Source: an uncultured Anaerolineae bacterium
Lineage (GTDB): Bacteria; Chloroflexota; Anaerolineae; J036; Brachytrichaceae
Length of the DNA: 43,467 nt
Direction: 5' to 3'
NCBI GenBank assembly: GCA_938034415.1
Contig: CALHLE010000035.1
Location: 1 to 43,467 of the forward strand
In this document: piece by piece, positions 1,349 through 11,620 of the stretch
Position numbering within the stretch: position 1 is the first letter of the stretch
Layout of the letters: each line of letters begins with the position of its first letter
The notes under the pieces: model-generated
What the model was told of the DNA's origin: nothing
Seen by the model: the letters and a program-made list of their open reading frames with translations, nothing else
The model's database searches: none
Translations under genes and position numbers: made by a program

Positions 1349-2131
1349 TCACACCCGCTGCACGAAGCTGAGCGGCCCGAGCCACCCCAACGCCCAAAGC
1401 GCCAGGAGGATCGCGGCGGCGGCGGCCCACAGCAGCAGCGCCAGGCCAACGTCGGCCCAATCGAGCGTGACGCGCCGCAAGTAGGTGCGCTGCGGGTAGG
1501 CGCCAAAGGCGCGCCCGTCCATGGCCAGCGCAGCGCGCTCGGCGCGGCGGATGGCCGAGGCCAGCAGCGGCACCAGCGCGCGGTGCGCCTGCGCCAACTC
1601 GCCCATCACGCCCGACCGGGCCAGGCCGCGCACGCGGTGGGCAGCGCGAATCTGCGCCAGCTCGTCGCGCAGCAGCGGCGCAAAGCGCAGCGCCGCCAGC
1701 GCCGCATAGCCCGCGCGATACGGCACGCGCGCCTGTTGTACCAGCGCGCGCACGAAGTCGTCCACTTGGGTGGTCAGGCTGAAGATCAGCGAGAGGCTCA
1801 CCAGCGCCAGGACGCGCGCCATGGCGACCAGCCCCAGGCGCAGCGCGCCGGCGTAGATCACCAGGTCGCCGATACGCGCGACCGCCGGCGTGTGCATCAC
1901 CAGCTCGCGCCGGACGATCAGGGGATACAGCGCCAGAAAGCCCAGCGCCACCAGCGCCAGCGGGACGAGCGCGCTCAGGATGCGCTTCGGCGCGACGCCG
2001 CCGACCAGCAGGGTGAGCAGCGCCAGGCCGGTCAGCGCCAGCGGCAAATAGACGTCGCCGGCCAGCGCCGCGGCCGCCATGAGCGGCGTCACGGCGACGA
2101 TCTTGCTCAACGGGTTGCGCCGCTCAAGCAT
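1349..2131 (-). CDS. ykoC: ECF transporter transmembrane component EcfT (YkoC-like)
   Basis: A 260-residue membrane protein of the EcfT/CbiQ family, the scaffold that couples the ATPase to the substrate-binding S component. It has hydrophobic helices near residues 10-60, 85-120 and 225-250. The two arginine-bearing cytoplasmic coupling motifs of the family are visible as AHRVRGLA and AMDGRAFG (roughly residues 165 and 203). The ATG at 2131 lies inside the last codons of the upstream ATPase gene (8-nt overlap), so translation is probably coupled. It is the last gene of a four-gene minus-strand operon. Because the S component is YkoE-like, the likely substrate is a thiamine precursor such as HMP, but that assignment is inferred. 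Confidence 0.88.
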   Translation of the reverse strand: MLERRNPLSKIVAVTPLMAAAALAGDVYLPLALTGLALLTLLVGGVAPKRILSALVPLALVALGFLALYPLIVRRELVMHTPAVARIGDLVIYAGALRLGLVAMARVLALVSLSLIFSLTTQVDDFVRALVQQARVPYRAGYAALAALRFAPLLRDELAQIRAAHRVRGLARSGVMGELAQAHRALVPLLASAIRRAERAALAMDGRAFGAYPQRTYLRRVTLDWADVGLALLLWAAAAAILLALWALGWLGPLSFVQRV

Positions 2132-3818
2132 AGGCAGGGGTTTGGGCCAACTCGGCGAACGCCTCTACGGTCAGCGGAAGCGGGCGCAGCCCCAGGCGCA
2201 GCCCCAACTCGCCGATCGGCGGCAGGGCGAGCTGCGCGCGGCGCAGCACGTCGGCGTCGGCGAAGATGGATTCGGGCGCGCCTTGGGCCAACACGCGCCC
2301 CTGGTGCATCACCACAATGTGCTGGGCGCGCGCTGCCAGCGCCATGTCGTGAGTGATCACACCAACCGTGCGCCCCTCATCGCGCAGCGACGCCAGCAAC
2401 GCCTGAATCGCCTGGGCGTTCTGTTGGTCTTGGCCGAAGGTGGGTTCGTCGAAGAGCAGGATGGGCTGGTCGGTGATGAGCAGCGTGGCCACGCTCAGCC
2501 GGCGCTTCTCGCCATGGCTCAGCGTGAAAGGATTGGCGTTGGCGTGGCGCGCCAGGCCGAAGCGTTCCAACAGTTCGTCCACCCGTCGCTCGCTCTGTCT
2601 GGCGTCCAGCCCGGCGGCGCGCGCGCTCAGGCGCAGCTCGTCGCGCACCGTGGCGGCGACGAACTGATGCTCCGGGTTCTGAAACACCAGGCCCACGGCG
2701 CGCGACCAGTCGCGCGCATTCAGGCGGCGGGCGTCGCGGCCGCGGATGGTCAATGCTCCACCTTGCAGCGGCAGCAGGCCAGCCAACAGGCGCGCCAGCG
2801 TGCTCTTGCCGGCGCCGTTGGAGCCGACTACCGCCCATAGGCTGCCCTCCGGCGCGGCAAAGCTCACCCCGCGCAACGCCTCGCGCGCGCCGTAGCGATA
2901 GCTGAGCGCGCGCGCTTCGATGGCGGCCGGCCCGTTCGTCGCGCGAAAGTCGGGCCGATGGCCGTTGCCTGCGGGGTGAAAGGCCGGGCCGACGTAAGCG
3001 CGCAGCGCTGCCTCGGCCTGCTCCAGCGTCACCGGCAGCGGCCGCAGGCCCAGCCGCGCGCCGAGCAAGGTGACCTGCGGCAGCCACACGCCCAGCGCGC
3101 GCAGGTCGTCGAAGTGCGCGTTGAACACCGCGTCCGGCGCGCCTTCGGCGACGAGTTCACCCCGCGCGCCGAGCACGATCACGCGGTCAACCAGCGGCAT
3201 CAGCTCGTCCAGCCGGTGCTCGATCAGGAGGAGGGTGTGATCGCCGCGCCGCTTAAGCGCGGCAATCGCCGCGAACACTTCGCGCACGCCCTGCGGGTCG
3301 AGATGGGCGGTGGGTTCGTCGAAGACGAGGACGCGCGGGCGCAGGGCCAGCAAGGACGCCAAGGCCACGCGCTGTTTCTGGCCGCCGCTGAGCTGCCAGG
3401 CCGAGGCGCCCTCCCAGCCGGCCATGCCCACCGCCGCCAGCGCTTCGCCCACGCGCCGACGGATCTCGTCCGGCGGAAGGCACAGATTCTCCGGCCCGAA
3501 GGCGACTTCGCTGGCCACATCCCACATCACGCACTGCGCCTCGGGGTCTTGGAAGACGACGCCCACCTGCTGGGCTAACGATGATGGCGGCGTGACGCGC
3601 GTGTCGCAGCCGTTGACCGTCACCCGGCCGGCAAACGTCGCCACGTCCTGGCTGTGCGGGATCAGCCCGTTGAGCGTGAGCGCCAGCGTGCTCTTGCCGC
3701 AGCCGCTGGGGCCGAGCAGCAGCGCGGTCTCGCCGGGGTGAAGCGTCAGCGAAAGGTCGGCGAGCGCCGGCTGTTTGCGCCCGACGTAGCGCACGGTGAG
3801 ATGCTCCAGCGCGATCAT
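2124..3818 (-). CDS. ykoD: ECF transporter ATPase with two fused nucleotide-binding domains (YkoD-like)
   Basis: A 564-residue protein made of two ABC ATPase domains in tandem, equivalent to EcfA1 plus EcfA2 in one chain. Domain 1 has Walker [10 protein letters not shown] (about residue 37), signature LSGGQKQR and Walker B LVFDEPTAHLD. Domain 2 (from about residue 300) has Walker A GSNGAGKST, a variant signature LSHGEKRR and Walker B LLFDEPTFGQD. Each domain ends in a similar RPLPVT/RPLPLT stretch, the mark of a tandem duplication. It energises uptake through EcfT and the YkoE-like S component. The start lies 6 nt after the stop of the 123-residue membrane protein, and the gene overlaps ecfT by 8 nt at its end. 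The fused layout matches YkoD of the B. subtilis ykoFEDC locus. Confidence 0.92.
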   Translation of the reverse strand: MIALEHLTVRYVGRKQPALADLSLTLHPGETALLLGPSGCGKSTLALTLNGLIPHSQDVATFAGRVTVNGCDTRVTPPSSLAQQVGVVFQDPEAQCVMWDVASEVAFGPENLCLPPDEIRRRVGEALAAVGMAGWEGASAWQLSGGQKQRVALASLLALRPRVLVFDEPTAHLDPQGVREVFAAIAALKRRGDHTLLLIEHRLDELMPLVDRVIVLGARGELVAEGAPDAVFNAHFDDLRALGVWLPQVTLLGARLGLRPLPVTLEQAEAALRAYVGPAFHPAGNGHRPDFRATNGPAAIEARALSYRYGAREALRGVSFAAPEGSLWAVVGSNGAGKSTLARLLAGLLPLQGGALTIRGRDARRLNARDWSRAVGLVFQNPEHQFVAATVRDELRLSARAAGLDARQSERRVDELLERFGLARHANANPFTLSHGEKRRLSVATLLITDQPILLFDEPTFGQDQQNAQAIQALLASLRDEGRTVGVITHDMALAARAQHIVVMHQGRVLAQGAPESIFADADVLRRAQLALPPIGELGLRLGLRPLPLTVEAFAELAQTPAYA

Positions 3819-3824
3819 CGCCGC

Positions 3825-4196
3825 TCAGCGCCCAAAGATGATCTGCAGGTCGCGCCAGGCGAGGATGCCGATGATCACCGTCATGCCCACGGCCAGCCCC
3901 AGGTAGCGCCAGCGCCAGTTGGTGCGCCACAGCCGGCGCACGTTCAGCGCGATGGTGGTCAGCGCCACAGCGTCTATCGCCAGCGCGATGGCCGCGGAGA
4001 GCGCGCTGGCCAGGCCGACCAGCGGCAGCAGGAACGGCAGCACGATGTAGCGCAGCGTGCAACGCAGCGCCACGAACGCCAAGGAGCCGCCGAACAGCCG
4101 GTCGCCGGCGCGCACCTGCGCCTCCGGCGGCAATACGGGGCATTCAGCCGACGCGGGCGGGACGGCGGCGGAGGAATCGGGCGCGGCGCGCGTCAT
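3825..4196 (-). CDS. Unknown small membrane protein inside the ECF operon
   Basis: A 123-residue protein that I do not recognise. The start ATG overlaps the stop of the S-component gene as ATGA (4193-4196), which fixes the start better than the longer upstream extension of the same frame, which is out-of-frame translation of the S-component gene. The first 40 residues are Ala/Pro-rich and polar. They are followed by hydrophobic stretches at about 45-65, 65-85 and 100-118, with a basic NVRRLWRTNWRWRY patch before the last one. Two or three membrane helices are likely. Its position between the S component and the ATPase, with overlaps or a 6-nt spacer on both sides, implies an accessory subunit of the transporter. 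B. subtilis YkoF (a soluble thiamine-binding protein) fills the extra-gene slot in ykoFEDC, but this protein looks nothing like it. Confidence 0.75.
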   Translation of the reverse strand: MTRAAPDSSAAVPPASAECPVLPPEAQVRAGDRLFGGSLAFVALRCTLRYIVLPFLLPLVGLASALSAAIALAIDAVALTTIALNVRRLWRTNWRWRYLGLAVGMTVIIGILAWRDLQIIFGR

Positions 4197-4789: not shown

Positions 4790-4918
4790 AGCGACACCCA
4801 ACCTCTCATCGAATGCTAAGATTTGCTAAGGTTTGCGCTATTTTACACGGGCTTTTTGCCGGTTCAAGCGAGGGAGGCGCGCGCTCATCGGCCTCTCATG
4901 CCGGATGGCGCGCGGCCG

Positions 4919-7525: not shown

Positions 7526-7855
7526 CTACTCGTCCGGCTCGCAGGTCAGCATGAGCGGGAAGCCCTCCAGCCGCGCGGCGAAGATGGCCTGGCCGACCAG
7601 CCGCTCCGCCTCGCTGCGTGGCCGCACGCACACCAACGCGATCCCCTCTGTGTGCGTGAGCCAGGCGATGTGCTCGGCGATCTCGCGCGAGAGCTTGAAG
7701 ATCGTCTGCAACATGCGCTCCACGAACTCGAACGTCGTCACGTCGTCGTTGTGGATCAGCACGCGCCACGGCGGCTCGACCCAAACCATCTCGTCGGCGA
7801 TGACATCGGTTTCGACTTCGCGCTCGCGGTTGGGCAGTCGAATCGGCTCGTCCAT
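7526..7855 (-). CDS. clpS: ATP-dependent Clp protease adaptor ClpS
   Basis: A 109-residue adaptor that delivers N-degron substrates to ClpAP or ClpCP. The family core [22 protein letters not shown] is visible at about residues 28-50, including the NDD motif that binds the N-terminal residue of the substrate. It is followed by the helix with [18 protein letters not shown] 25-residue acidic/polar N-terminal extension matches the flexible ClpS tail. TATAAT lies 11 nt upstream of the ATG. No Clp ATPase gene is in the window. Confidence 0.92.
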
Positions 7856-7884
7856 GTCAGGTCAAAATTATAAAAACTTCCTCC

Positions 7885-7917
7885 AGGGTGGGCGAAGGCA
7901 CTGCCTTCGCCCACCCT
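7885..7917. repeat. Dispersed palindrome, copy 1 (GGCGAAGG core)
   Basis: A perfect inverted repeat with 16-bp arms around a single base; the arm core is GGGTGGGCGAAGGCA. It sits between the end of thiP and the start of clpS, 14 bp after the thiP stop, so it may act as a transcription barrier. It shares GGCGAAGG...CCTTCGCC with elements at 11671-11703 and 37341-37371. Confidence 0.85.
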
Positions 7918-7931
7918 ATTAATTCCTCTGC

Positions 7932-9662
7932 TCATGCCTTGCGGGCCGATAGGGCCTGCTCGTTGAAGCGCTCGATGGCGATCACGCTGGCCAGCGTGAC
8001 GAGCATCAGCAGCGTGCTCATCGCCAGCGCCTGGCCGTAGTTCAGCGCGCCGGGCTGTCCGAGGAAGCGATAGATCACCATGGGCATGGTGGGATACTCT
8101 GGGCGCGCGATGAGCAGCGAGGCGCCGAACTCGCCCAGAGAGACGGTGAACGCGAAGACCATCGCGGCGACGAACGGCGGCGCCAACAGCGGCAGGTCCA
8201 CGTAGCGCAGCGCCTGCAACGGGCCGGCGCCGAGACCGCGCGCCGCCTCGCGCAGGCGCGGGTCGAGCGCGCGGATGGCCGGCGTCAACGCGCGCGCGAC
8301 GAACGGCAGCGCGATGAGCGTGTGGGCCAGCGGCAACAACGCGACCGACGTGCGCAGTTCGAGCGGCGGCCGATCAAAGGCCACCAGGAAGCCCAACCCC
8401 AGCGTCACCGCGCTGGTGCCTAGTGGCAGCAACAGCAGCGCATCGAGCGACTGCGCCAGGCGCGCCGCGCCGCCGGCCGCCGAGCGGCTGCCCTGCGCGA
8501 TGGCGTAGCTCAGCGGCACACCCAGCAGCATCGCCAGCGTCGCCGCAATGCCGGCGAAGAGCAGGGAGTTGCGGATCGCCGTCTGCGGCGGGACGAAGAA
8601 CAGCGACCCGCGCGGGTTCTCGCTCAGCGCGGCATAGTAGCGCAGCGGGTCGCCTCCTGATAGGTCTAGCGAGCGCCAGGCCAGCGTGGCCAAGGGCAGG
8701 CCCAGGACGAGGACGATGAACGCCAGGCTGCCGGCGACGAGCACGCGCGCCGCCGGACTGTCGGCCGGCCGGCGGATGTCGTCGGCCGGGCGCGCGGCCA
8801 GCGGCGCGCCGGCGCGCGCCTCCAGGCGCGCCGAAGCCCAACCCACCAGCAGCGTGACGGCCATCTGCACGATAGCCAACGACGTAGCCACGTCCAGGCG
8901 CAGCAATTGAGCAGTCTGCCGATAGATCTCCACCTCCAGCGTGGCGAAGCGCGCGCCGCCCAGGATCAGCACCACGCCGAAGCTGGTGAAGGTGAACAGG
9001 AAGGTCAGCGCCGCCGCGGCGCCGACCGACGGCATGGCCATGGGCAACGTGACGTGGCGAAAGGTCTGCCAGCGATTCGCGCCCAGCCCGGCGGCGGCTT
9101 CCTCGATGCTCGGATCGAAGGCGGCAAGGAAACCACCCACCAGCCGGAGCACAACGGCGACGTTGTAGAACACGTGCGCAAGTAGGATCATCGGCAGCGT
9201 GCCCATCAACTGTATGGGCGGCTGCTCGAGGCCGAACGCGGCCTGCAGCGCGGCGTTCAGCGCACCGCGCGGGCCCAGCAGCGCGCTAAACGCCGCCGCG
9301 ACGACCACGGTGGGCATGACGAACGGCGCCATGGCCAGCGCGCGCCACAGGCGCTGGCCGGCGAAGCGATAGCGGGCGAAGGCCAGGGCAATCGGGACGC
9401 CGGCCAGCAGCGTGAGCGCGGTGGACAGCGCCGCCTGTCCCGCGCTGAACCCCAACACGCGCAGGTGCGCCGGGTCGCGCAGCACCGTCAGCGGCGTCGC
9501 GCCCCGGCTGATTTCGCTGGGGGTAAACGACACGCGCGCGATCTCGATCAGCGGCCAGGCGAAGAAGACGGCGAGGAAGAGCAGCGCCGGCGCAGCGGCG
9601 AGGAAGGAGGCGATCGCCGACCGAGGCCGGGCGCGCCAAATCGCCGATCGCCCCTCGCTCAC
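7932..9662 (-). CDS. thiP: Thiamine ABC transporter permease, fused double domain (ThiP-like)
   Basis: A 576-residue permease with two homologous halves of about six helices each, as in ThiP and the iron-type FbpB permeases. The EAA loops are visible as EEAAAGLGANRWQTFRHVTLP (first half) and REAARGLGAGPLQALRYVDLP (second half). The start was set at GTG 9662, which overlaps the thiB stop as GTGA. A longer ATG start at 9695 would overlap thiB by 37 nt. It moves thiamine delivered by ThiB across the membrane. Substrate is inferred from the TPP riboswitch and the thiamine pyrophosphokinase at the head of the operon. No thiQ-type ATPase follows: the next gene is clpS, after a palindrome. Confidence 0.85.
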   Translation of the reverse strand: MSEGRSAIWRARPRSAIASFLAAAPALLFLAVFFAWPLIEIARVSFTPSEISRGATPLTVLRDPAHLRVLGFSAGQAALSTALTLLAGVPIALAFARYRFAGQRLWRALAMAPFVMPTVVVAAAFSALLGPRGALNAALQAAFGLEQPPIQLMGTLPMILLAHVFYNVAVVLRLVGGFLAAFDPSIEEAAAGLGANRWQTFRHVTLPMAMPSVGAAAALTFLFTFTSFGVVLILGGARFATLEVEIYRQTAQLLRLDVATSLAIVQMAVTLLVGWASARLEARAGAPLAARPADDIRRPADSPAARVLVAGSLAFIVLVLGLPLATLAWRSLDLSGGDPLRYYAALSENPRGSLFFVPPQTAIRNSLLFAGIAATLAMLLGVPLSYAIAQGSRSAAGGAARLAQSLDALLLLPLGTSAVTLGLGFLVAFDRPPLELRTSVALLPLAHTLIALPFVARALTPAIRALDPRLREAARGLGAGPLQALRYVDLPLLAPPFVAAMVFAFTVSLGEFGASLLIARPEYPTMPMVIYRFLGQPGALNYGQALAMSTLLMLVTLASVIAIERFNEQALSARKA

Positions 9663-11484: not shown

Positions 11485-11504
11485 GCTGTGATAGCCGATG
11501 ATGC

Positions 11505-11596
11505 TTCGCGTTTCCCTCCGCTGGCATGACCCAGATCAGGTTCAAGGGTCGGCGCCGGATTGGGCGCCCTCTCAGCCCGCGTCCGCGGACTCCCCA
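11505..11596 (-). promoter_or_regulatory. TPP riboswitch (THI element)
   Basis: The minus strand carries the hallmark TPP aptamer elements in order: the 5' strand of P1, GGCTGAGAGGG (P2/J2-3 with the CUGAGA motif), a variable P3 arm, GACCCTTGAACCTGATCTGG (P4-P5 with the pyrophosphate-binding bulge), GTCATGCCAGCG and a closing GGAGGGAA. It precedes thiN, thiB and thiP. By family knowledge, TPP binding switches off downstream expression. Confidence 0.95.
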
Positions 11597-11620
11597 TTCG
11601 CGTAATTGAATTGTACGAGA

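Follow-up and report, generated by a model that had tools for sequence, protein, structure and literature searches.

The operon that we describe here resembles YkoEDC of Bacillus subtilis, which has a homologous substrate component (S), the same kinds of double ATPase (A) and transmembrane component (T), and likewise forms one operon. It differs from YkoEDC in lacking a TPP riboswitch at the operon and in carrying a further gene, which we call X, between S and A; its S protein also falls in a clade apart from the riboswitch- or TenA-linked S proteins of the thiamine/HMP type. CbiN and NikN are small accessory proteins of cobalt and nickel ECF importers. X is, like them, a small membrane protein in an ECF operon that may be of a metal type, but it also adjoins FTR1, FecCD and MFS genes and is unlike the two CbiN-like proteins with which we compared it. 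Heme import by an ECF system has a precedent in LhaSTA of Staphylococcus lugdunensis (PMC7299338). Going by that description, LhaSTA shares with S-X-A-T the substrate class that we propose and a dedicated operon of S, T and A; it differs in that the available part of its description contains no X-like protein, and in that we infer the substrate of S-X-A-T. Finally, by analogy with the description of BtuM (PMC6072759), a Cys ligating the metal of a tetrapyrrole may be proposed for X; BtuM differs in being a vitamin B12 protein.

The window (the whole stretch of DNA analysed, 43,467 nucleotides) carries S, X, A and T as a run of four genes on the minus strand, and the following of its features are used below:

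1349..2131, minus strand: T, CbiQ-like transmembrane component, YkoC-like (CbiQ NCBIfam model below cut-off)
2124..3818, minus strand: A, double ECF ATPase, YkoD-like (double ABC ATPase, TIGR04520)
3825..4196, minus strand: X, open reading frame of 123 aa plus stop; membrane protein with three predicted helices
4193..4789, minus strand: S component, PF09819, YkoE-type, outside the thiamine-type clade (by Pfam, PDB and tree)
4814..4830, minus strand: direct repeat CTTAGCA-N3-CTTAGCA, between a promoter-like sequence and S
11496-11606, minus strand: TPP riboswitch, 5' of thiamin pyrophosphokinase, ThiB- and ThiP-like genes

An earlier reading of this DNA, made from the sequence only, had taken the neighbours of X for an ECF importer of the YkoEDC type, and this assignment holds. 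S belongs to the YkoE family by sequence homology (PF09819, E 5.7e-15; match of the S alignment to B. subtilis YkoE, PDB 5EDL, 4.8e-20), and a PF09819 S, a CbiQ-like T and a double ABC ATPase in one same-strand run make up a group-I ECF importer. The same reading had placed X tightly in the operon. Indeed, the start of X overlaps the end of S at 4193 by 4 nt (ATGA), a GGAGG lies 5' of its ATG, and a gap of 6 nt separates it from the start of A at 3818. Six genomes, counting the one of the window, share the ATGA overlap. X is under purifying selection, with dN/dS of 0.14-0.30 against eight S-X-A-T orthologues and of 0.58 and 0.62 against two copies from iron loci. The overlap, the GGAGG and the dN/dS values show, therefore, that X is a real gene.

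What kind of protein does it encode? Three helices are predicted (residues 32-59, 64-89 and 95-121), as many as had been expected, in a weak AlphaFold2 model built on an alignment of 37 rows (mean pLDDT 59.5). Seven residues (R45, C46, Y50, P54, P58, W90 and D116) are invariant in 39/39 aligned relatives. The earlier remark that X has no nameable similarity also stands: at most 4 of the 37 aligned members match any one Pfam or NCBIfam family (best E 0.006), and a PDB search with X returned no matching chain (best E 1.2). We recognised no description of X, or of an iron-type YkoE importer, in the open-licence papers, as far as their text was available. Hence, X appears, by its sequence, to represent an undescribed family of small Chloroflexota membrane proteins. 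The suggestion that X could be a second S-type subunit finds no support. An hhalign alignment of X against S gives a probability of 1.1%, there is no PDB match, and the weak model predicts three helices; S components have about six.

The distribution of X separates the family of the window from the rest of the phylum. This family comprises Candidatus Roseilinea and its kin (Chloroflexota; 28 genomes), of which 16 have X and 12 have this S gene. All 12 genomes with S also have X, in the order S-X-A-T in 11 of them, so that in the family X is a conserved part of this operon, as the sequence-only reading supposed. Of 400 Chloroflexota genomes sampled, 30 have X and 57 have S. Outside the family, 50 of the 51 genomes with S lack X, and the remaining one (G244) has it on a different contig; absence from related ykoEDC operons, which the reading had named as counting against itself, is thus the rule outside the family and is not seen inside it. 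We examined 41 X loci, of which 24 are from outside the family and 17, a fragment included, from within it. X lies in an ECF operon at 12 of them, namely the 11 S-X-A-T loci and that of G020, and outside ECF operons at the other 29, one of which is a fragment. Therefore, at the level of the phylum the orthologues are found mainly outside ECF operons, the other outcome that had been named as adverse, while within the family 12 of the 17 X loci are ECF operons. X cannot be counted as a subunit dedicated to ECF importers; what survives of its proposed role is that of an accessory in a wider sense. In the X tree, which mostly tracks family taxonomy, the 11 S-X-A-T proteins form one clade (94/92) next to the X proteins of iron loci.

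The genes found around X point, in separate lineages, to iron and heme. We used seven types of iron marker (FTR1, imelysin, ABM, DtxR-type, Peripla_BP_2, FecCD and FbpA) and found at least one within 6 kb at 13 of the 41 X loci: at all 6 family loci not beside S, at 1 of the 11 beside S and at 6 of the 24 outside the family. Excluding the five X loci from which marker sequences were taken leaves 8 of 36. None of 20 random regions, taken from four genomes, has a marker. Among 19 loci of S without X, a protein-level scan gives one, the thiamine-clade S locus L154, with an FTR1 gene at a distance of about 4 kb. This comparison is rough, since the markers were picked after the neighbourhoods of X had been seen and contig ends cut some stretches. 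There is no marker within 6 kb at 10 of the 11 S-X-A-T loci, that of the window among them, nor at 18 of the 24 loci outside the family, including all those of g71, f12 and f27.

In the family, the link of the ECF genes themselves with iron or heme is seen in two genomes (G014 and G020); the 10 remaining genomes with S show none within 6 kb. G014 has fbpA-fbpB-fbpC-Y-S-X-A-T on a single strand. Its FbpA matches Fe(3+)-binding proteins of the PDB (5.5e-71), and the nearest NCBIfam models for its Fbp-type proteins are those for 2-aminoethylphosphonate, below cut-off. G020 has imelysin-FTR1-X-A-T-ABM and a DtxR-type gene; its S lies 25 kb off on the contig, near DUF4951, two Peripla_BP_2 genes and one FecCD gene. 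Four family genomes without an S match (G018, G019, G021 and G022) keep X near a marker gene: G022 has imelysin-FTR1-X-ABM, G018 and G019 have MFS-X-ABM, with a DtxR-FeoA gene also in G018, and in G021 X is near an FbpA-like ABC set and a divergent DtxR/MntR-type gene, whose MntR score is better than its DtxR score. The f62 loci read Peripla_BP_2-FecCD-CcmC-like-ABM-FecCD-X-178 aa-DtxR-type, an order that was checked with Pfam in L082 and by similarity in three more, L089 being cut before the DtxR-type gene. A DtxR-type gene is also present at 2 of the 3 g97 loci. In two further X loci, considered separately from the 41, X follows a ferrochelatase with one gene in between (L047) or comes behind PucC and a MerR-type gene (L048). 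The ABM proteins, which resemble heme monooxygenases, are closest to the uncharacterised TT1380, and then to the heme degraders HmoB and HmuQ (HmuQ below cut-off).

Three uncharacterised proteins recur in these neighbourhoods. Y, of 255 aa, occurs in the family at several loci of X or FTR1, with about 63-65% identity, and was not found in the 20 random regions. A small protein recurs in the heme-type loci of f62, with weakly similar ones in iron loci of the family and near the S of G020. The third, of 178 aa, adjoins X at seven loci, four of f62 and three of g97. Their positions are:

L028:8941-9708, L022:4842-5621, L018:4521-5339, L232:6384-7163 and L020:14400-14984: Y protein
L082:4290-4718, L021:12587-13015, L232:502-930, L019 about 108-422 and L141 about 7806-8108: small recurrent protein
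L082:7878-8414, and also in L088, L089, L094, L096, L099 and L100: 178-aa protein

The regulatory sequences of these loci give a less coherent picture. The direct repeat upstream of S is exact in G000 and G024 and has 1-2 mismatches in G023 and G017; ATGAGAG repeats lie close to it in the window. As the marker of a regulon it failed: with up to 2 mismatches, five genomes contain 20 sites, against 64 in a reversed control, and the numbers per genome are below or near those of the control, so no regulon is indicated. In L021, L022, L231 and L232, the stretch from the DtxR-type gene to imelysin contains a palindrome like AGTTGGCAGGCTGCCAACT, which may be an operator; none was found in the corresponding part of L023, so that four of five genomes have it. 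We also discarded the idea of a shared DtxR-type operator, as this palindrome of the iron loci was not found in the S promoter of the window.

All 16 X-bearing genomes of the family have exactly one intact X. Three of them (G017, G023 and G024) have S-X-A-T plus an FTR1 locus in which X is broken or absent: it is a shortened remnant in L231, is present as fragments in several frames in L022 and was not found in L232. The remnants, which in draft genomes could also reflect sequencing errors, lie in genomes with an intact X in the ECF operon:

L231:6337-6539: remnant of an iron-locus X
L022:7485-7746: remnant of an iron-locus X

A single intact X, kept either in the ECF operon or in the iron locus, therefore fits one function common to both types of X.

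These observations suggest that S-X-A-T is an ECF importer of the iron or heme (tetrapyrrole) type that captured a general accessory of iron and tetrapyrrole handling, a reading to which we give about an even chance of being right. Since the X family is tied to iron and heme genes, the substrate of S-X-A-T is most likely of an iron or heme type and not thiamine. The X family would work with the acquisition or handling of iron and heme or other tetrapyrroles in Chloroflexota and, in the lineage of the window, would have joined S, A and T as the fourth gene of a group-I ECF system. In this importer, S would be the membrane substrate binder; its ligand could be a ferric chelate, heme or a tetrapyrrole of another kind. 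Import would be powered by T together with the double ATPase A. X would sit beside S as a membrane accessory, possibly touching S or T, and could for example receive, hold or pass on the metal or tetrapyrrole by means of its invariant mid-helix Arg-Cys, in which the Cys may have a direct part. It would handle metal or tetrapyrrole for other importers as well. A narrower version makes X a membrane chaperone for heme-type tetrapyrroles, whose metal would be ligated by the invariant Cys, common to ECF, FTR1, FecCD and MFS importers, with the operon of the window being a heme or tetrapyrrole ECF system; we consider this version rather unlikely.

One alternative is that S-X-A-T is an ordinary YkoE-type importer of thiamine or HMP, in which X is an accessory specific to the lineage and stands where YkoF would be; a thiamine role was implied by the sequence-only reading. 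The homology of S with B. subtilis YkoE speaks for this account, as does the location of the operon about 3 kb from a thiamine operon in the window. Yet the latter is a separate, riboswitch-controlled import operon, and a tree of 33 S proteins (unrooted, with several rows on long branches and B. subtilis YkoE left out) has a branch with 96/99 support that splits 10 thiamine-type rows, defined by a TPP riboswitch or TenA (TenA Pfam-checked in L150, L151 and L155), from 23 others. The latter group includes all 11 X-linked S proteins and the S of G020, together with S proteins adjoining Suc_Fer-like genes. Six of the 10 thiamine-clade loci have a TPP riboswitch, against 0 of 23 operons outside that clade, the 11 X-linked ones included; none is present at the S-X-A-T operon of the window or at ten S-X-A-T loci. 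G027 has both kinds of S, with a riboswitch only at the thiamine-type one (this second S is a weak match, 6e-8, on a long branch). X also occurs without S. A thiamine role of S-X-A-T is therefore unlikely, judging by the lack of an operon riboswitch, the position of S outside the thiamine clade and the separate thiamine operon in the window, and we would not expect the ordinary-importer account to be correct. The operons with the Suc_Fer-like gene (PF06999; Pfam-checked in L143, L144 and L147) are YkoE-type S-A-T operons of f30 (L142-L147), and L142 has a tandem pair of S genes.

Two other accounts place X in a different part of tetrapyrrole or metal biology. It could be a phototrophy-linked tetrapyrrole protein, trafficking bacteriochlorophyll or heme, to which the iron neighbours are secondary. 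Of the 16 family genomes that have X, 15 also have Photo_RC; in the 400-genome sample, which has 38 genomes with Photo_RC in total, so do 24 of the 30 with X. The PucC gene ahead of X in L048 and the ferrochelatase gene ahead of it in L047 speak for this account as well. However, phototrophy is confounded with taxonomy, which accounts for much of the association. The sample has 6 genomes with X only and 14 with Photo_RC only (356 have neither), and the family has exceptions in both directions: G026 (87% complete) has X and no Photo_RC, and G011 has Photo_RC and no X. The X tree mostly mirrors family taxonomy, and we therefore rejected the simple account of a joint transfer of X and phototrophy. 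We regard a primary link with phototrophy as rather improbable. Less credit still goes to the idea that X is a cobalt or corrinoid accessory acting like CbiN, which we consider very unlikely. Small membrane accessories such as CbiN are known from metal ECF importers, and X is near cbiMNQO-like genes in L096 and L100 (named by eye) and near MeaB in L093. Against this, the profile similarity between X and the CbiN-like proteins of L096 and L100, two sequences named by eye, has a probability of 0.3%, X has no CbiN match in Pfam, and iron and heme genes outnumber the others among the genes linked to X.

If S-X-A-T is, as we favour, an importer of the iron or heme type, is heme needed by these bacteria as such? 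The genome of the window has a ferrochelatase, no PF01126 heme oxygenase and no ABM above cut-off, which makes heme doubtful as its source of iron. Ferrochelatase (PF00762) is absent from 5 of the 12 S-bearing genomes of the family (those with S-X-A-T and no match being G012, G023, G025, G026 and G027), from 0 of the 4 with X and no S, and from 8 of the 12 without X. Its absence does not track the importer, because it is also missing from those 8 genomes without X. We therefore set aside the idea that these bacteria have the ECF system because they are heme auxotrophs: the genome of the window has the enzyme, and the enzyme is missing more often where X is lacking than where S is present. For a member of the family, Candidatus Roseilinea mizusawaensis, the authors report heme-copper and bd oxidases (PMC8446752).

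The work brings to light a previously unnamed small membrane protein of hot-spring bacteria, found in the operon of a vitamin-type importer. YkoE-type operons are readily taken for thiamine importers, and if the clade described here imports heme or iron, this annotation would be wrong for that clade. ECF-based acquisition of iron would then extend well past the Staphylococcus case. If X is a chaperone of the kind considered above, it would be the first accessory common to such importers. In the broader reading that we prefer, X would be a new family linked to the supply of iron and tetrapyrroles in Chloroflexota, many of which are phototrophs.
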